This document shows, piece by piece, positions 7,697 to 15,392 of a DNA stretch of 64,000 nucleotides (position 1 is its first letter; each line of letters opens with the position of its first letter). A model generated the notes under the pieces. The model saw only the letters and a program-made list of their open reading frames with translations, was not told the DNA's origin and searched no databases. The position numbers were made by a program, and so were the translations under genes. The stretch is from Bradyrhizobium sp. sBnM-33. Lineage in GTDB: Bacteria > Pseudomonadota > Alphaproteobacteria > Rhizobiales > Xanthobacteraceae. Location of the stretch: positions 6,758,001 to 6,822,000 of the forward strand of contig NZ_CP136624.1 in NCBI RefSeq assembly GCF_032917945.1. The letters run 5' to 3'.

Positions 7697-8017
7697 CAAG
7701 TAGTTCCCGGGCGGAACGACGCCTTTCAGGCAAGCGCCGATGCGCCGCTTTACACCACCGGCGGTAAGCCCGGCAATTGACAATTGCGGCAGAAAACCGG
7801 GAAGCGGGCCTACCGCCGCCAGCGATCCGGAGTTCCTCGGCGCAGGTCGCCTGGCTTCCCCGCCGAACCGCGGCTCGCAAATCCATCAACGGGAAATTGC
7901 AGCGGAGCCAGCATGCACGAGCGCGGGACCGCGCCCTCTGGCCTAAGTGTTTACACCAAGACGTAGGCGATGCTACACAATAGGGCTGAGACATTAATTG
8001 CGTGCAGAGGCAGATCG
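7697..8017. other. Divergent promoter region cycH / exbB
   Basis: 321 bp with no gene. It holds the start region of the cycH operon on the minus strand and, on the exbB side, the 25-bp MntR-like element at 7953-7977. Nothing else distinctive was seen. Confidence 0.55.
7953..7977 (+). promoter_or_regulatory. Putative MntR operator upstream of exbB-exbD-tonB
   Basis: The core ACGTAGGCGATGCTACA (7961-7977) contains the inverted repeat GTAG-N6-CTAC. The 25-bp element matches the one at 13305-13329 at 21 of 25 positions, including an ACACCAA lead-in. It ends 40 bp before the exbB start. The E. coli MntR site as I remember it has a related left arm (AAACATAG...) and a GGCTA right arm. MntR binding is inferred from this and from the mntR gene nearby. 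Confidence 0.65.
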
Positions 8018-8857
8018 ATGCGACCCTGGAAAGCATTTCGACGTGGCGCTGTTCCGTTCAACCTCTGTCGCAGCGTACCGCTTCTGTCACCTCCGTTGCT
8101 GTTGCTGTCATTTCCGGCCGCCGCCCAGGACGCAACGGAAAGGGCAGCGATCGCGGCTGCAGTGCTGCCCCGCGATCTCAGCCCCTGGGGCATGTTCATG
8201 CAAGCGGACGCCGTGGTCAAAGCAGTGATGATTGGCCTGGTGTTTGCGACCGCGGTCACCTGGACGGTGTGGCTCGCAAAGACGATCGAGCTGATCAAGG
8301 CGCGACGGAATGCCCGACACGCTTTGCGCGAACTCGCCAATGTCCGGAACGTAGAAGACGCCGTGCGGCAGGTGCCCGAGGGCGCGGTTGCCCAGTTGCT
8401 CGAGGGCGCCCTGGCGGAACTCCGATTGAGTACCGATCGAATGGACAAGGAGGGGATCAAGGCACGGATCGCCTCCCGGCTGCAGCAGATCGAGGCGGCG
8501 GCAAGCAGGCGCATCGGACTAGGCACCAGCGTGCTTGCGACCATTGGATCGACCGGCCCCTTCGTCGGACTGTTCGGCACCGTCTGGGGAATCATGAACA
8601 GCTTTATCGGAATCTCGAAGTCACAAACCACCAACCTCGCCGTGGTCGCGCCCGGAATCGCCGAGGCGCTGCTGGCGACGGCACTCGGGCTGGTGGCGGC
8701 GATTCCCGCGGTCATGATCTACAATCTCTTTGCACGCCAGATCGCCTCATACCGGGCGCTACTCGGCGACGGATCCGCAGAGATCACGCGACTGGTCGGC
8801 CGCGAGCTCGATAGCGGTACCATGCTGGTGCGGCGGCACCTCGCAGCGGCGGAGTAG
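8018..8857 (+). CDS. exbB: ExbB-type proton channel subunit of a TonB motor
   Basis: An inner-membrane subunit that, with ExbD, converts proton-motive force into TonB movement. It is a MotA/TolQ/ExbB family protein of 279 aa. After a signal-like N-terminus (to about residue 37, AAAQ) there is a first helix at about 66-84, then the cytoplasmic helical domain, and the signature helices with GPFVGLFGTVWGIMNSF at about 176-192 and AEALLATALGLVAAIPAV. ATG 8018 was preferred to ATG 7970 because 7970 lies inside the operator element. It is the first gene of exbB-exbD-tonB, with exbD five bases downstream. Confidence 0.92.
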   Translation: MRPWKAFRRGAVPFNLCRSVPLLSPPLLLLSFPAAAQDATERAAIAAAVLPRDLSPWGMFMQADAVVKAVMIGLVFATAVTWTVWLAKTIELIKARRNARHALRELANVRNVEDAVRQVPEGAVAQLLEGALAELRLSTDRMDKEGIKARIASRLQQIEAAASRRIGLGTSVLATIGSTGPFVGLFGTVWGIMNSFIGISKSQTTNLAVVAPGIAEALLATALGLVAAIPAVMIYNLFARQIASYRALLGDGSAEITRLVGRELDSGTMLVRRHLAAAE

Positions 8858-8862
8858 CAGCC

Positions 8863-9288
8863 ATGGCCGCCAGTCTGAACCAAGGCAATGGCGATCTCAC
8901 CGAAGTCCATGAGATCAACGTGACGCCTTTCATCGACGTCATTCTCGTCCTGCTCATCATCTTTATGGTTGCCGCACCGCTTGCGACCGTCGATATCGCC
9001 GTCGATCTTCCGGCGTCGAACGCCCAGCCACAGCCGCGGCCCGACAAGCCGGTCTATCTGACCGTGAAGCCGGACCTGTCGCTTTCCGTCGGGAACGAAA
9101 CCGTGGGCCGCGGCGCGCTGCCCGGCGCGCTCGATGCGAGCACCAGCGGCCAGAAGGATACCCGCATTTTCCTGCGCGCCGACAAGCTCGTCCCTTATGG
9201 CGAGGTGATGCAGGTCATGAACATGTTGCGGGCCGCCGGCTACCTCAAGGTCGCCCTGGTCGGAATGGAGCAAGCTTCATCGCCATGA
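8863..9288 (+). CDS. exbD: ExbD-type TonB motor subunit
   Basis: 141 aa. A short cytoplasmic tail precedes the signature EINVTPFIDVILVLLIIFMV helix (about 17-36), whose Asp25 matches the conserved proton-carrying aspartate of ExbD/TolR. A periplasmic domain with the usual ExbD pattern follows (VYLTVKPD..., IFLRADKLVPYGEVMQVMNM). It overlaps tonB by four bases (ATGA), indicating coupled translation. Confidence 0.94.
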   Translation: MAASLNQGNGDLTEVHEINVTPFIDVILVLLIIFMVAAPLATVDIAVDLPASNAQPQPRPDKPVYLTVKPDLSLSVGNETVGRGALPGALDASTSGQKDTRIFLRADKLVPYGEVMQVMNMLRAAGYLKVALVGMEQASSP

Positions 9289-10040
9289 TGCAGCTTGCGG
9301 CCGAAGATCGTTCCGACCTTCGACGATGGATGTTCAGCAGCCTCGCGGTGCTGTGCATCTACGCCGGATTGACCGCCACGCTCGCCACCTGGCGCGACGT
9401 GGACGACAGCGTGGCTGCCGAAACTTCGGGCGCGATCGTGGTCGACCTGGCGCCGCTAGCCGCAGCACCAGCGACGACGCCGACCGACATTGCGCCCGGC
9501 CCGGAGCAGGTGATGTCGGAGGCGCAGCCGGTAGCGAAGCCCGAGGAGACGCCGCCCGATGAAACGCCCGAGTTGCCGCCCGCTCCAAATCCGGACGCCG
9601 CCGTGGCGCTGCAAACCAGGCCGCAGCCTGACGTGACGCCGCAGCAGCAGGCAGCGGCCGCCACGACATCAGCACCGCCCGCGATTAACGAGCGGATCGC
9701 ACCGGTCGCCGTTGCGCCGACCAAGGGTGTGCCGAATGACAAAAATTCGGAGGCCGTGGTGACATGGCGAACCCAGGTCCTCGCTTTGGTCGAAAAGAAC
9801 AAGCGATACCCGGAAACCGCGCGGTCGCGGCGCGAGCAAGGGACGGCGCAGGTGTCGTTCACGCTGGATCGCAAGGGAATGGTTGTCAGCGCGCGGGTAA
9901 CTCAAAGTTCGGGATCCGGCGCCCTCGATGAAGAAGCGCTCGCGCTCCTCAAGCGCGCGCAGCCCTTCCCTGCCCCGCCTGCAACGTTTCCCGGCGAATT
10001 AGTTGTCGTCAGGCAGCCGATCCGCTTCACCGTCAAATAG
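9285..10040 (+). CDS. tonB: TonB energy-transducing protein
   Basis: 251 aa with an N-terminal membrane anchor at about 15-34, a long Pro/Ala/Glu-rich periplasm-spanning linker (about 55-140), and a C-terminal TonB domain. The domain includes the YPETARSRREQGTAQVSFTL region with the conserved Tyr-Pro pair and the usual RVTQSSGSGALDEEAL segment. It contacts the TonB box of outer-membrane receptors. The gene overlaps exbD and converges on the receptor gene, leaving 52 bp between the two stops. The dedicated exbBD-tonB set next to one receptor suggests a private motor. Confidence 0.93.
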   Translation: MMQLAAEDRSDLRRWMFSSLAVLCIYAGLTATLATWRDVDDSVAAETSGAIVVDLAPLAAAPATTPTDIAPGPEQVMSEAQPVAKPEETPPDETPELPPAPNPDAAVALQTRPQPDVTPQQQAAAATTSAPPAINERIAPVAVAPTKGVPNDKNSEAVVTWRTQVLALVEKNKRYPETARSRREQGTAQVSFTLDRKGMVVSARVTQSSGSGALDEEALALLKRAQPFPAPPATFPGELVVVRQPIRFTVK

Positions 10041-10092
10041 AGCGTGCGAAAAGGCTGACTGGTCGTCGAGTTACGGGCATCAGTTCGATGCG

Positions 10093-13000
10093 TTAATCCA
10101 CCACGATCGCGCCGCTGCCAAAGCTGTAGTTGACGCCGAGCCTGACCCCATCACTGGTCACCCGCGTGTTGGCGTCGAACGCAACCGCGGTGTTGACCGC
10201 CACAGGCGGTGTCGAACGCACCGAGCCAAAATCCATGTGGAGATATTCGAGCTTTGCGGTCCAGTTGCCGGTCAGCCGCGTCTCGAAACCGGCGCCGACA
10301 GCCCAGCCGAACCGATACAAGTGCCGATCCAGAGACGCCGTCGTCGCGACACCCGCATTATCGAAACCTGCAACAGCCGTTGACGTCGTTATCTTGCTGA
10401 ACGGAACGCCCGCGGTGGCATAGGCAAGCAGGTCCGGCGTCACAAGCGTTCCGACGCGCCCGCGAACCGAAGCCGCCCAACCCAGACAATAGTCCAGACT
10501 CGCCGTCACGGTGGCATCGAGCGGAGCGAGCGCCGGGTTGCAGATGTTGCCGGGGCAAGCGGTGGTGCTGCTTCCGCGCTGATTGCGATATTCAAAATCG
10601 CCTTCAATGCCTGCCAGCATCCGGCCCGATGTCCAGTTATAGCCAGCCTGTGCCCCAATACTGGCGGTGTCGTGCGTGGACGATAGGCGGGCTCCGGCAA
10701 GCGAGGCACCGGTTGCAGCATCGTTGAACGCAGCGTTGGTAACGCCCTCACCCCGCAAATATCCGACATTGCCGCCGGCATAGATGCCGGCCCAGTTCCA
10801 GGCCGCCGCTTCCTGCGCGGGGCTCTTGTAATAACCGTTGCCGTCCGGCCGTCTCGCCGTGCCGATCCAGGTGCCGGGCGGGCCGCTTGGCCGGTCGATA
10901 CCGTATTTGACGTTGAGAAACAGCTTGAAGCCGCGACCCGGTTGCAGAATCTCGTCCTTGTGAAATTGAACGGAGTTGCGAATGTTGGCGTTGAGCAGAT
11001 TGTCGCCAACTATCCCGGTCGCGACCTCAACCGCGCCCCACGGCGAATCCTTCCAGAACTTCCGGTGCTCGAGCTGCACCTTCACCAAATCGTATCCGGC
11101 GGTCGCCGTATCGAATTGTGGGATGTCATTCTGCGCAAATGCGTGCAACACGCCGACGCGCGCGAACCAATTGTCGTTGCGCCAGTAAACGCCGCCGCCG
11201 AGGCGCATCGGAGGAATGCGCGGCACGTTGCTGCCGTCAGTGAACGTCGCCCGCACAACATCATATTGGCCGTCGAAACCAAGGGTGCCATTGGCAAGTT
11301 GTGCGGCGTCCCACTGCAACGCCAGTTCGCCGCCGCGGAAGGTCGCGTCACGCTGATCATAGTTGACCTGGATGTAATCGGTGCCGGCTCCGCATGACGC
11401 AAACGTTTCCTGGCAGAAGATGCCGGTGGCGCGCGAGAAAATGAATTTCTCGTACGACGTGTAGTAGGCATTTGCGGCTAACCTGAAATCGCCATCCGTG
11501 CGTTTCAAGCCGATTTCCGCGGTCTGCGCGGTTTCGATTCCGAGGTTCGGGTTGCCGATCTTGAACGTCTTCTCCGAGCCATCGGGACCCTGGGCGAACA
11601 GTTCGAGCGCGCGCGGCGCACGTTCGATCCGTTGCAGCGTCAAGCTGGCCACCAGCGAGGATGGAAGATCCTTGATGATGCCGAAGCTGACGCTCTTCGG
11701 TATGAAGTCGAGCTTGGCGGCGGCCCTGCCCGGCTCATCCGGTGGTGGGAGAAAGTTCGGCGGAAAAGTGAATGCTGTTCCCGCGACATTGACTCCCTCG
11801 ATGCGACCCGCCAATTGCGTACGCAGCGTGTCCGTGTGCCTGACTTCATTGAGGAAGTACGCCGCCGCCGTTCTGGTCTGGGCCGGAAGCAAGATCGCCT
11901 GCCCTGCCGTGTCGAGTTGCTGGTAGGCGCCTTGCGCGCCGAAAATGCTGGTCAGCGGACCGATCGGCGTGGCGAACGGCGAAAGCTCGAACTCGAGCTT
12001 GCCCTCGGTCTGCCGATTCTTGAAAGTGGCGGTAATCTCCTGGAAGCCGGTGGTGGCGAGCACCGTCTCATCGTGCCGGTACTCCGAATACCCGGTCCAG
12101 TACCTGATCGCGGCAAGTGCGCTTGCGTCCGGGCGATACTCGCCCTTGGAGCTGATCTTGGTTTGCTCGAGGTCGTTGTGCTGACGGGCATCCGCGGTCG
12201 CAATACCGGGGACGTAGTAGTCGCTAGTGAAGCGCGAGACGGCGATGCCGGCATAACCGCCATCGAAAAGCCAGGAGCCGCCGACCGCCGCGCCTGCGCT
12301 TTGCGAAGCGGAGTTCGGCTGCTTGCCGTTGAAGGCAGGCGCAGGGATCGGCGGGACCAGATACGGGTAACTCGGGACGCTGTAATCGCCGGAGGAGCGC
12401 CCGTAGATGTCGGCATGAACGGCGGCGTTGCGGCCGCCGGCATCCAGCAACAGGCCGCTCTCCCATCCCCTGTTGACGCTTGTCACGCCCGACCTCAGCT
12501 CTGCAGCCACTCCCCCGAGCGGCGCAGCGGTCGGAATCCGGTTGTTGTTGACGTCGACGACGCCGCCGACGGCCTGCGACCCGAAGCGGAGCGCACCCGG
12601 TCCGCGAATGACGTCGACCTTCTGGATGGCGAGAGGATCGATCGGCACCGCGTGATCCTGCGCGATGTCAGACACATCGACCGCACCAACGCCGTTCTCC
12701 TGAATGCGGACCTTTGCGTCCGACAGGCCACGCAAGATCGGGCGCGACGATTCCGTGGCAAGCCCCGCCGAAGTTGCGCCGGGCATATTGGTGAACAGGC
12801 TGCCGAACCCGCCGTTGCTGCTGCCGGTCTGGATCTGGTTGCTTCCGATCGTCGACAGCGGCGCGAAGGGCGGATTGAAGGGCGAGGTCGGGGTGGTGGT
12901 GGGCGTTGGGCCCGGCAGCGGTGCCGCCACGGTCGTCGAACGCCGACCGGGCTCGCCGCGCGCAGCCCGCCGCGCGGGTTTAGGCTGACGCCCCTCGACG

Positions 13001-13260
13001 GTCACTTGCGGCATGTCGATTTCCGTCGGCGCGCCCGGCGTGGCTTGCGGTCCGGCCGGCGCGGTCTGCGACGGAGCCGGCTCCGCCGGGGCTTGCCCCG
13101 CTGCCGGCGGTGCCGGAGCGGCTGGTTCGGCGGGCGGCGCGGCCTGGGGCGCCGATGGCGCGGGCGCTGCGGTCTGCGCGGGCGCCGCGGCGTGGCCCAA
13201 CCAAACCACGGCCAGTGCCGATGTACCCACAAGGGCCATTCGCGTCGCGCGCATATTCAT
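10093..13260 (-). CDS. TonB-dependent receptor fused to a C-terminal Omp25/31-like beta-barrel; predicted manganese receptor
   Basis: An outer-membrane receptor of 1055 aa, about 250-300 residues longer than usual. Order: signal peptide (to about 30), a Pro/Ala-rich spacer (about 30-80), a TonB-box-like MPQVTVEG (about 83-90), then a plug with NGVGAVDVSDIAQDHAV and IRGPGALRFGSQAVGGVVDV. That pattern is shared with ZnuD-type metal receptors. The 22-strand barrel closes near residue 800 with GDNLLNANIRNSV and GRGFKLFLNVKY. From about 823 (WAGIYAGGNVGYL) to the end is a second domain with the hallmarks of the small Omp25/Omp31 surface-antigen barrels (AGYNWTSGRMLAGIEGDFEY, TAKLEYLHMDFG, VRLGVNYSFG). 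Start chosen at ATG 13260; ATG 13254 and TTG 13284 are alternatives. Manganese as substrate is inferred from mntR and the shared operator; zinc or another metal is possible. Confidence 0.88.
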   Translation of the reverse strand: MNMRATRMALVGTSALAVVWLGHAAAPAQTAAPAPSAPQAAPPAEPAAPAPPAAGQAPAEPAPSQTAPAGPQATPGAPTEIDMPQVTVEGRQPKPARRAARGEPGRRSTTVAAPLPGPTPTTTPTSPFNPPFAPLSTIGSNQIQTGSSNGGFGSLFTNMPGATSAGLATESSRPILRGLSDAKVRIQENGVGAVDVSDIAQDHAVPIDPLAIQKVDVIRGPGALRFGSQAVGGVVDVNNNRIPTAAPLGGVAAELRSGVTSVNRGWESGLLLDAGGRNAAVHADIYGRSSGDYSVPSYPYLVPPIPAPAFNGKQPNSASQSAGAAVGGSWLFDGGYAGIAVSRFTSDYYVPGIATADARQHNDLEQTKISSKGEYRPDASALAAIRYWTGYSEYRHDETVLATTGFQEITATFKNRQTEGKLEFELSPFATPIGPLTSIFGAQGAYQQLDTAGQAILLPAQTRTAAAYFLNEVRHTDTLRTQLAGRIEGVNVAGTAFTFPPNFLPPPDEPGRAAAKLDFIPKSVSFGIIKDLPSSLVASLTLQRIERAPRALELFAQGPDGSEKTFKIGNPNLGIETAQTAEIGLKRTDGDFRLAANAYYTSYEKFIFSRATGIFCQETFASCGAGTDYIQVNYDQRDATFRGGELALQWDAAQLANGTLGFDGQYDVVRATFTDGSNVPRIPPMRLGGGVYWRNDNWFARVGVLHAFAQNDIPQFDTATAGYDLVKVQLEHRKFWKDSPWGAVEVATGIVGDNLLNANIRNSVQFHKDEILQPGRGFKLFLNVKYGIDRPSGPPGTWIGTARRPDGNGYYKSPAQEAAAWNWAGIYAGGNVGYLRGEGVTNAAFNDAATGASLAGARLSSTHDTASIGAQAGYNWTSGRMLAGIEGDFEYRNQRGSSTTACPGNICNPALAPLDATVTASLDYCLGWAASVRGRVGTLVTPDLLAYATAGVPFSKITTSTAVAGFDNAGVATTASLDRHLYRFGWAVGAGFETRLTGNWTAKLEYLHMDFGSVRSTPPVAVNTAVAFDANTRVTSDGVRLGVNYSFGSGAIVVD

Positions 13261-13304
13261 CCCCAGCCGATCGCGCTTCAGCAACAGCTATTTGATAAGC
13301 CGCA

Positions 13305-13329
13305 ACACCAAAACGTAGGTAAGGCTACA
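13305..13329 (+). promoter_or_regulatory. Putative MntR operator between receptor and mntR
   Basis: The core ACGTAGGTAAGGCTACA (13313-13329) lies between the divergent receptor and mntR genes and matches the exbB-upstream element at 21 of 25 positions. The GTAG...CTAC arms are palindromic, so one site could control the receptor on the minus strand and mntR on the plus strand. The AAAAC lead and the GGCTA right arm recall the E. coli MntR box. Confidence 0.65.
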
Positions 13330-13489
13330 TGTTAATGCTGGACCGTTATCTGTCAAGATGCTGCGAATGACTCGCAAATGCCAGACGCTCCGCCTGTTGC
13401 AGATCGGCGACAAGCGCCAACTTGCAATGTGGTCGGCAGCACGCCATGGTCGCGCCTCGTCTGAATGGATTCGCCTGGAAGGTGCAGTG

Positions 13490-13963
13490 GTGCGTAAGCC
13501 CTCGACAAATCGGGCCAAGCCGATGCAGCCGCTGCCCGCGGAACAAACGCAGGCGCGCCGCTTCGGAAAGGCACGATCGGCGCGATCGACCGCTGTTCTG
13601 GAAGACTATGTCGAATTGATCTCTGATCTGCTCGGAACGACCGGCGAGGCGCGCCCGACCGACATCGCGCGCAGGCTGGGCGTGTCGCATCCGACGGCGA
13701 TCGACACCATTGCGCGGTTGAAGCGCGAAGACCTGGTTACGGCCCGCCCCTATCGCGGGGTGTTCCTGACCGAAAAGGGTGAGACCCTCGCCAAGCGCGT
13801 CCGCGCCCGTCACCGTCTGGTGGTCGACGTCTTGCTGGCGCTGGGCGTCCCGCAGGAAGCCGCGGAGGCTGATGCCGAGGGCATCGAACATCATGTTTCC
13901 GATGTGACGCTGAAGGCCTTCGCCGAATTTCTTCGCAATGCCAAGGATCGACGCAAGGCATGA
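13490..13963 (+). CDS. mntR: Manganese-responsive regulator MntR (DtxR family)
   Basis: A Mn(II)-dependent DNA-binding repressor, close in pattern to E. coli MntR. An N-terminal winged helix follows the LEDYVELISDLLG helix, with recognition region IARRLGVSHPTAIDTIARL. All six residues that bind Mn in B. subtilis MntR have equivalents here: Asp39 and Glu42 (LEDYVEL), His108 (RHRLV), and Glu130, Glu133, His134 (DAEGIEHH). There is no SH3 domain, as expected for MntR. GTG 13490 is preferred: GGAAGG lies seven bases upstream and it gives 157 aa, near the E. coli length. ATG 13358 and ATG 13523 are in frame. It is divergent from the receptor with an operator-like site between, so autoregulation is likely. 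Confidence 0.93.
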   Translation: MRKPSTNRAKPMQPLPAEQTQARRFGKARSARSTAVLEDYVELISDLLGTTGEARPTDIARRLGVSHPTAIDTIARLKREDLVTARPYRGVFLTEKGETLAKRVRARHRLVVDVLLALGVPQEAAEADAEGIEHHVSDVTLKAFAEFLRNAKDRRKA

Positions 13964-13985: not shown

Positions 13986-15392
13986 CTAGCCTGCCCTGGT
14001 CGATTTACGCTTGCCGGTCACGGCATTTTCGGCGGCTCTACTCATCAGCGACGCATAGTCATGGCCGAACAGGATTTCGCAGAAGCGGATCGCCGCCTTG
14101 GCCTGCATTTGCCGGTAGGCGCGCGCCCTGGTGTCGGCGCCGCGCAGCGCCTGCACCAGGCTCTCGGTGGAATGCTCGACGTAATGCTGCAGGTCGGAAT
14201 AGGTCCGCAGGGTGACTTCGTTGATGGCGAGTTCGCTGGCATAGGTGCGGCACACCGCCACGAAGTCGATCAGGGCGGCGATCTCTTCGACCTCCGCGGC
14301 ATCGATCTTCGGCGCCGAAGCGATATCCTTGTCGGCACGCTGACGCAGGATGCGGCGGACCCGGCCGGGCACGCTCTCGATCTCCGACCGCAGCGAATTG
14401 GAAATATCGGCCCGGATCGACGTAAGCTGGCGGCCCCACGCGGAATCGTTGCGCAAATCGAGCTCGGTGCGCAAGCCCCGCACGCCATCGTGCAGGATTT
14501 TCAATTGGTCGCCGACATTATCGAAATGGCCGCGCCTGATGTCCGTGCGCAGGCAGGCGGTAAGGAACGAGAGATCGTGCAGCGCGATCGTGACGGCGAT
14601 GCCATAGGGCGTGGCTGCCACGCGAATCTCGTCGTCGGAGGCCGCCATCTTGACCGCGAGACGGATGATCTGCCACGGCGCCGCCAATCGCTGCATGATT
14701 AGCGCCAGCGCGAACGGCAGCAATTGCGGCGTCTGCAACGAGGGCACGTTGAGCGCCGACGTCACGGTGTCGAGCTGGGAGGGCGTCAGCGCCCGAATCT
14801 GGCCGGGAAGCCGGCTGCCGAGCGTCTCCATCGCCTCACGGGCCCGCAGCACCGCGCCGATCGATAATAAATCCTCGACGACATTCGGCGAGCCAATGCG
14901 CGAGAGCGCACGATGCCTGTCCTCGCCCTGCACCGGAGTGGCGATCTTGACGATCGCCTCGGCTGCGGCGAGTTGGAATTTGCGGGTCGCGGCTTCGAGA
15001 CCTGCGGTGGAGCCGCTCAGCCTGATCTCGTTGAGTGTCGTTTCGAATGCACGCACGGCTTCGGGCGCGCCGTCGCGGCCCAGCCATTGCCAGACCGGCA
15101 GCAGCGACGCGCGTCGGATCTGCCCGGCGCGCACCGGAAAATTGCCCTCGACGAGAAACGGCTCGAGCGGACCGTACAACAGCCGCGCCGGATCGTCCGT
15201 CCGCGGACGCGCCTCGTCGTCTTCCTCGGTCCCACGCACGACTTTGCGCAACTGCTCGAGCACGAAATTGGCGACGGCGAGGTCTTCCCCGCGCTCGATG
15301 GCGCGCTCGAACTCCCGCATCAGCAGCGCCTGCGATTGAGGCGGGAGCTGGGCGAGATAGTCCCTCAGCCGCTCTGTCGATGTCTGGCTCAT
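13986..15392 (-). CDS. Conserved hypothetical protein, 468 aa
   Basis: No named domain recognised. The protein is soluble and mostly helical, with no signal peptide or membrane helix. The N-terminus (RLRDYLAQLPPQSQALLMREFERAIERGED) looks like a helical pair, and an acidic patch TEEDDEARPRTDD at about 54-66 is followed by a long Leu/Ala/Arg-rich body that may form helical repeats. From memory, similar proteins occur widely in Bradyrhizobium and Rhodopseudomonas. It converges on mntR with 22 bp between stops and follows the histidine kinase on the same strand after a 162-bp gap. A degenerate TTAA-N7-TTTA lies about 75 bp upstream. Function unknown. Confidence 0.75.
   Translation of the reverse strand: MSQTSTERLRDYLAQLPPQSQALLMREFERAIERGEDLAVANFVLEQLRKVVRGTEEDDEARPRTDDPARLLYGPLEPFLVEGNFPVRAGQIRRASLLPVWQWLGRDGAPEAVRAFETTLNEIRLSGSTAGLEAATRKFQLAAAEAIVKIATPVQGEDRHRALSRIGSPNVVEDLLSIGAVLRAREAMETLGSRLPGQIRALTPSQLDTVTSALNVPSLQTPQLLPFALALIMQRLAAPWQIIRLAVKMAASDDEIRVAATPYGIAVTIALHDLSFLTACLRTDIRRGHFDNVGDQLKILHDGVRGLRTELDLRNDSAWGRQLTSIRADISNSLRSEIESVPGRVRRILRQRADKDIASAPKIDAAEVEEIAALIDFVAVCRTYASELAINEVTLRTYSDLQHYVEHSTESLVQALRGADTRARAYRQMQAKAAIRFCEILFGHDYASLMSRAAENAVTGKRKSTRAG

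Follow-up and report, generated by a model that had tools for sequence, protein, structure and literature searches.

The exbB-exbD-tonB, receptor and mntR cassette

In a stretch of 64,000 nucleotides of Bradyrhizobium sp. sBnM-33 (contig NZ_CP136624.1, positions 6,758,001 to 6,822,000; hereafter the window), we analyzed a gene cassette that combines the regulator gene mntR, a gene for a TonB-dependent receptor (TBDR) resembling the zinc receptor ZnuD, and the motor genes exbB, exbD and tonB. The source genome is one contig of 9,184,954 bases. The motor genes follow one another on the forward strand in the order exbB, exbD, tonB; the receptor gene, on the reverse strand, converges on them, and mntR is divergent from the receptor gene. 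An initial annotation had reported these genes as lying together, and family profile matches place all of them as it described. The features that matter below are the following.

7950..7955, forward strand: candidate -35 element of the exbB promoter, TTTACA, read by eye in a block conserved across 30 aligned loci
7961..7978: candidate MntR box 1, ACGTAGGCGATGCTACAC, its end 39 bp upstream of the probable exbB ATG; core matched exactly in 29 of the 30 motor-bearing loci
8018..8857, forward strand: exbB (TIGR02797, 304.5 bits, cut-off 206.2); conserved ATG at 8018, mechanical open reading frame (ORF) from 7970
8863..9288, forward strand: exbD (TIGR02803, 206.8 bits, cut-off 152.95)
9285..10040, forward strand: tonB (PF03544 at the C-terminus, 4e-17; TIGR01352)
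10093..13284, reverse strand: TBDR of the ZnuD type, 1063 amino acids (PF07715 and PF00593); start probably at 13260 or 13254
10120..10821, reverse strand: C-terminal OMP_b-brl domain of the TBDR, residues 822-1055 (PF13505, 7.8e-15)
11581..11583, reverse strand: codon of TBDR Asp568, at the place of ZnuD His499; among 121 aligned proteins, 37 have Asp and 84 have His here
12067..12069, reverse strand: codon of TBDR Glu406, equivalent to ZnuD Glu340; invariant in 121 of 121
12652..12657, reverse strand: codons of TBDR Asp210 and His211, equivalent to ZnuD Asp99 and His100; invariant in 121 of 121
13313..13330: candidate MntR box 2, ACGTAGGTAAGGCTACAT, in the TBDR-mntR gap; exact core in 31 of 32 gaps
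13329..13356, reverse strand: candidate TBDR promoter, TTGACA-16-TAACAT, whose second hexamer touches box 2; TGTCAA block conserved in aligned loci
13358..13963, forward strand: mntR (NF008273, 208.7 bits, cut-off 153; PDB MntR 2h09, 121.6 bits); start uncertain, candidates from 13358 to 13523

By Pfam, the receptor consists of a plug (residues 143-242), the TonB barrel and the OMP_b-brl domain, in that order. Plug, TonB barrel and motor genes, the parts by which a TonB-dependent transporter is recognized, are thus all present at the cassette.

MntR and two candidate boxes

The window MntR is the sole match above the family cut-off in its own genome (NF008273, the E. coli type of the DtxR family). 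Its residues D83, E86, H152, E174, E177 and H178 align with the manganese ligands of Bacillus subtilis MntR, which we take to be D8, E11, H77, E99, E102 and H103, so that the six ligands reported initially are indeed present. The annotation had also described two operator-like sites that bind the genes into one regulatory unit. Both sites fit the strict pattern RYGTAGN5GCTACRY, which has only four matches in the 9.18-Mb genome (17 for the reversed control pattern). The mechanical exbB ORF overlaps box 1, and in the aligned loci the conserved start is the ATG at 8018 instead. The candidate -35 element of exbB was missed by the consensus promoter scan; in the alignment of 30 exbB upstream regions, the box together with its promoter-like surroundings is the outstanding block. 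Upstream of the TBDR gene the scan found one promoter against 0.8 expected by shuffling, which is weak on its own. The other two strict matches of the genome were considered and set aside: no ORF of at least 100 amino acids lies within 100 bp of the one at C1:1438122, and the one at C1:5248174 falls 11 bp past the end of a 476-amino-acid ORF.

We also looked at mntR loci of other genomes, of which the best 80 were kept out of a larger number; 4 had the whole cassette and 76 did not, and 52 of the 80 include a gene for MntH. Many of the 76 cassette-less loci have a ATGTAGCCnnGGCTACAT-type palindrome near mntR or mntH. Within 600 bp upstream of mntR, 44 of the 76 reached a score of 14 or more out of 18; with 20 shuffles per locus, no shuffled sequence scored above 14. 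The strict palindrome stood ahead of mntH instead in seven more loci (L040, L044, L054, L057, L058, L061 and L062). Judged by their letters, both cassette sites have the form of the palindrome found at mntR and mntH of other taxa; this likeness and the conservation of both sites at the cassette support a single regulatory unit. In a separate observation, mntR is divergent from the gene of an OprB-family porin in three loci without the TBDR (L185:4959-7842, L033:818-3494 and L035), with MntR-box-like palindromes between them, which makes the porin a candidate for control by MntR.

Conservation of the cassette in the genus

A search of 265 genus genomes detected MntR in 40, and we compared its surroundings in all of these, the window representing its own genome. 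The TBDR gene adjoins mntR in 32 of these 40 loci. The strict box core is present in all TBDR-mntR gaps but that of L159, which has a degenerate palindrome only, and upstream of exbB in all motor-bearing loci but L149; the cores are conserved down to about 65% protein identity. In genomes G062 and G257, the two genes are on separate contigs, with mntR at the start of its own. The remaining six mntR loci lie with mntH (L172, L179, L182, L183), with a porin gene (L185) or with nothing recognized (L184, L264). A TBDR orthologue, defined by an E value of at most 1e-120 for a 237-amino-acid part (next best match, 5e-68), occurs in 34 of the 265 genomes, namely in 34 of the 40 with MntR and in none of the 225 without. 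That every genome with the orthologue also has MntR lends further weight to the manganese function that the initial annotation had suggested.

At least one side of the cassette carries flank genes of the window in 24 of the 32 loci. Within the fetched stretch, the other 8 share none of the four flank genes tested, so the cassette stays together in differing surroundings. Most named close relatives are Bradyrhizobium and a few are metagenome-assembled genomes of Rhizobiales; one relative, P0034, is named as plasmid-borne. Between mntR and a histidine kinase gene, the window contains a 468-amino-acid ORF (13986-15392) with no Pfam match, which is a conserved right-hand neighbor of the cassette in one clade.

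The receptor has a ZnuD-like metal site with one substituted ligand

ZnuD is the best PDB match of the TBDR both by sequence (E value, 2.9e-32) and by fold: in a Foldseek search with the TBDR model, ZnuD chains took the first four places among the PDB matches, and the copper transporter OprC came after them. The NCBIfam cut-off for ZnuD (950 bits) was reached neither by the TBDR (205.3 bits) nor by its paralogue described below (214.1 bits). The zinc ligands of Neisseria ZnuD (PDB 4rdr, 4rdt, 4rvw) are Asp99, His100, Glu340 and His499 according to the ZnuD paper (PMC4557270), where one simulation passage prints D90. In a HMMER alignment, the corresponding chain residues 113, 114, 354 and 513 (a constant offset of 14) face Asp210, His211, Glu406 and Asp568 of the TBDR in gap-free stretches. 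The plug Asp-His pair and the barrel Glu are therefore shared with ZnuD, whereas the fourth ligand is an aspartate. A further difference is that the alignment pairs nothing in the TBDR with the His-rich loop of ZnuD, which lies between its chain residues 256 and 314.

To see how this site varies, we aligned 121 proteins, consisting of the window TBDR and the best 120 of 2302 matches (only candidates sharing most words were scored). Aspartate at the fourth position is confined to the window TBDR and its 36 best matches. Eight alignment columns, that of the fourth ligand among them, separate the Asp and His groups at 90% or more. The caveat of the initial annotation that zinc might be the substrate is narrowed but still holds: three ZnuD ligands are retained, and the His-to-Asp substitution of the fourth is accompanied by boxes of the MntR rather than the Zur type.

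Ligand type segregates with the regulator box and with motor genes

We scored 92 loci for ligand type and regulator box: 40 from the genus, 45 from searches of the family (63 of 391 genomes matched) and the order (7 of 397 matched, 5 of them with an already known Asp-type receptor; L264 was left out), and 7 paralogue loci. A receptor ORF was present in 84 (L216, without one, was dropped) and a full ligand quartet in 82, with L240 and L251 being partial and outside the quartet counts. The quartet was Asp-His-Glu-His in 47 receptors (His-type) and Asp-His-Glu-Asp in 35 (Asp-type), the window included. The Zur-type box was defined after the sites that PMC4176598 gives for Caulobacter znuK, among others. 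Such a box, scoring at least 14 of 17, preceded 41 of the 47 His-type receptors; of the others, four scored 13, L217 scored 11 and L220 scored 7 (288 bp upstream). None of the 35 Asp-type receptors had one (best score, 11 of 17). Conversely, an MntR box was found at 32 of the 35 Asp-type receptors and at none of the 47 His-type ones, for which the best score was 13 of 18. The 32 comprise 24 with a score of at least 14 of 18 and eight low-scoring genus loci that hold the strict site inside a mechanically over-long ORF; L159 has only its degenerate palindrome. The shuffle maxima were 14 for the MntR box and 13 for the Zur box. Stricter first patterns had recovered 22 of the 47 His-type and 23 of the 35 Asp-type receptors.

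The motor genes followed the same division, with the reservation that flank lengths varied among loci. Apart from the window, 31 of 34 Asp-type loci have exbB, exbD and tonB complete alongside; L175 and L178 are without them, and in L259 the contig breaks off. Of 48 His-type loci, only L217 has the complete set, while a TonB-like match is present in L222 and, at a contig end, a fragment of ExbD in L245. The dedicated motor proposed initially is therefore upheld as gene linkage only. The exception, L217:1619-5862 (genome G035), encodes a His-type receptor that falls on a long branch and has an exbB-exbD-tonB set of its own.

In a tree of 83 rows, built by a quick method with a midpoint root and containing several long branches, Asp at the fourth ligand requires two His/Asp changes, even on the starred (well-supported) branches alone, and we infer that His is the older state. 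The second, separate Asp-type origin is that of L259 and L260 (genomes G851 and G837), two genomes of one other genus of the family. In both, the receptor lies beside exbB, and in L260 also beside exbD-tonB, without MntR. An inverted repeat, TGCGATTAGTTCGCA, was seen by eye close to the receptor start in L259 and may be a Mur or Fur box.

The same genome carries a His-type paralogue

The source genome holds both kinds of quartet. The paralogue at C1:3059086-3061548 (L207:5087-7549) has 820 amino acids, 44% identity to the window TBDR, the quartet Asp-His-Glu-His and no extra barrel. Some 515 bp upstream of its ORF, beyond an intervening small ORF, lies a Zur-type box, ACGTTATAATGTAACAC, and we regard this paralogue as the candidate zinc receptor of the genome.

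Of the three Nramp genes in the genome, the top-scoring one (459 bits) has no strict MntR box; instead, TGCAAATGAGTTGCA lies 30 bp upstream of its start, and the genome has just one more site of this kind. In Rhizobium leguminosarum, mntH is under Mur (PMC5575495). The form of the TGCAAATGAGTTGCA site suggests that it is a Mur box; four Fur-family genes are present in the genome. The inner-membrane importer and the outer-membrane module thus seem to answer to different manganese sensors. The genome's one further TGCAAN5TTGCA palindrome (L186:3731-4243, C1:7444230) directly precedes a 151-amino-acid ORF with a signal-peptide-like stretch, possibly another Mur target.

A second barrel is fused to the receptor

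The initial annotation had missed the second beta-barrel domain at the C-terminus of the TBDR (PF13505). The AlphaFold model (mean predicted local distance difference test score [pLDDT], 68.8) shows a large barrel and eight further strands at residues 833-1054. Raw profile matches to this barrel among the 121 proteins numbered 0 in 15, 1 in 66, 2 in 14, 3 in 13, 4 in 12 and 5 in 1, where some matches are one domain split in two. After merging by length, the Asp-type group had one barrel (35 proteins) or none (2), and the His-type group had none (15), one (30), two (14), three (24) or four (1); some rows may be fragments. ZnuD-like receptors of up to 1783 amino acids with two to four tandem C-terminal 8-stranded barrels were seen in P0062, P0070, P0077, P0082, P0091 and P0096, and Pfam marks four barrel stretches in P0091.

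The OprB-family porins beside mntR in L185, L033 and L035 have the same kind of barrel at their N-terminus (L033 and L035 are near-identical). We had at one point taken these barrels for stand-alone 8-stranded barrel proteins, which was wrong. Because such barrels are common among outer membrane proteins (953 matches), the porin parallel is only a hint that the barrel module takes part in metal entry. The fused barrel is probably an accessory, and our guess is that it would serve in surface metal capture, in anchoring or as a side channel. Among the matches listed in the open-licence literature, no paper on a receptor-barrel fusion was apparent from titles or abstract openings.

A probable MntR-controlled manganese-starvation module

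We consider it likely, with a probability of roughly 0.7, that the cassette is an MntR-controlled manganese-starvation module whose receptor is a zinc receptor retuned to manganese. Gene content, the boxes with their conservation, and the ligand substitution with its segregation by box type are shown directly; manganese as the substrate, repression by MntR, energized transport and a role for the extra barrel are what we infer from the sequence comparisons. When manganese is replete, manganese-loaded MntR would occupy the boxes in the exbB promoter and in the TBDR-mntR gap and thereby keep the motor operon and the receptor off; it would probably also tune its own gene. When manganese is scarce, MntR would release the boxes. 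The receptor would then capture Mn2+ in a buried site to which the plug contributes Asp210 and His211 and the barrel Glu406 and Asp568. The ExbB-ExbD-TonB motor, produced together with it, would use the energy of the proton gradient to open the plug and let Mn2+ into the periplasm. From there, MntH, an Nramp importer in the inner membrane that is probably controlled by the second manganese sensor, Mur, may take up Mn2+. The receptor would descend from a zinc receptor by the change of the fourth ligand from His to Asp and by a shift of control from Zur to MntR.

Being a harder ligand that binds through oxygen, aspartate is a better match for Mn2+ than histidine. We can envisage, at somewhat less than even odds, a broader scheme in which the His-to-Asp change, occurring at least twice, makes an energized manganese importer out of a ZnuD-type zinc importer, each time beside a dedicated motor and in Bradyrhizobium with MntR as well, and in which the Omp25-like barrel would be part of the metal-entry machine, with two barrels side by side per polypeptide (up to five in relatives).

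Several points weigh against the manganese module. The genomes are related, so that the conservation and co-occurrence counts are far from independent, and the association of Asp with MntR in Bradyrhizobium and in genome G734 is one evolutionary event. Asp does not always accompany MntR, since the second Asp-type origin has no MntR box, either over 900 bp in L259 or in L260, where only 36 bp are available upstream. In L175 and L178, the TBDR gene, box and mntR are kept and motor genes are not nearby. The MntR box consensus was drawn by eye from loci that were then scored with it, and six of the 24 Asp-type scores are exactly 14, the maximum of the shuffles. The pLDDT is below 50 for residues 1-215, so the arrangement of Asp210 and His211 cannot be read from the model, and Asp binds zinc and iron too. 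Finally, the His-type receptors viewed in genome context all lack an extra barrel, the fused His-type relatives lying outside that comparison. As to the boxes themselves, with 2 mismatches allowed, a looser pattern shows no enrichment in the window (6 matches against 7.65 expected from shuffling), and the strict pattern occurs at least once in 94 of the 265 genus genomes, some of them without MntR; the case for the boxes hence rests on their position and conservation. These last counts would fit genes and palindromes that are chance neighbors and not one unit, an explanation that we nevertheless find very improbable, because two of the four strict genome matches sit exactly in the two promoter gaps, the boxes are conserved, TBDR and MntR co-occur in the genus, and the cassette holds together in differing surroundings.

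A less improbable alternative, although still unlikely, is that the TBDR remains a zinc receptor, or a broad one for zinc and manganese, that was placed under MntR, with Asp568 merely shifting its affinity. The match to ZnuD in sequence and fold, the retention of three of the four zinc ligands and the ability of Asp to bind zinc all fit this idea. It accords poorly with the absence of Zur-type boxes from the Asp-type receptors and their prevalence at the His-type ones, with the His-type paralogue and its Zur-type box kept in the same genome, and with the absence of the His-rich capture loop of ZnuD. Somewhat less likely again is another ligand, such as Fe2+, a metal chelate or a metallophore complex, imported within a manganese-dependent program, iron and manganese economy being linked. 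The TBDR does show a weaker similarity to haem receptors, but a four-ligand metal site with three invariant places is that of a free-ion receptor such as ZnuD, and no metallophore synthesis gene was recognized among the ORFs of the cassette, to which that search was confined.

Relation to known systems

TonB-dependent receptors for manganese and under MntR are already known, and the new part is the variant described here. PMC13217887 (2026) reports MntR-dependent expression of a CQNC-type TBDR in Stenotrophomonas maltophilia, as part of a TBDR-pTFP module. That module resembles the window cassette in having a TBDR beside mntR and an MntR box in the TBDR promoter, and differs in its CQNC plug motif and periplasmic thioredoxin-fold partner, in place of which the window cassette has exbB, exbD and tonB. 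The plug of the window TBDR (residues 143-242) contains no Cys, hence no CQNC motif, and no thioredoxin-fold partner gene adjoins the TBDR gene, whose neighbors are the exbB operon side and mntR. MnoT of Burkholderia is a TonB-dependent manganese transporter fed by the secreted manganese-binding protein TseM, as cited in PMC9334652; by description, TonB-dependent manganese entry is proposed for both systems, and feeding by TseM belongs to MnoT. MnoP, from Bradyrhizobium itself, is an outer membrane protein that mediates manganese import in proteoliposomes (cited in PMC9334652 and PMC6011978); compared by description, it shares outer membrane manganese entry with our proposal but is described without a motor. 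Caulobacter ZnuK, ZnuL and ZnuM are likewise alphaproteobacterial TBDRs under a metal repressor, but for zinc and under Zur, not MntR, and the His-type paralogues carry sites of the same form as the Zur site printed for Caulobacter (PMC4176598). MntR is not mentioned in the available parts of PMC5343134. Titles and abstract openings in the open-licence literature revealed no paper on the cassette or on the His/Asp switch, although an earlier prediction of this cassette may exist.

Implications

The passage of manganese across the outer membrane is poorly known, and in Bradyrhizobium the described route is MnoP. If our interpretation is right, an energized, MntR-controlled route would add a second mode of manganese entry in this genus. 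The contrast within one genome, between an Asp-type receptor with MntR boxes and a His-type receptor with a Zur-type box, makes TBDR metal selectivity testable by one reciprocal substitution, and the Asp and His quartets may provide a sequence rule to predict receptors for manganese or zinc. The fusion of a receptor with a further barrel is, in addition, an unusual outer membrane architecture.

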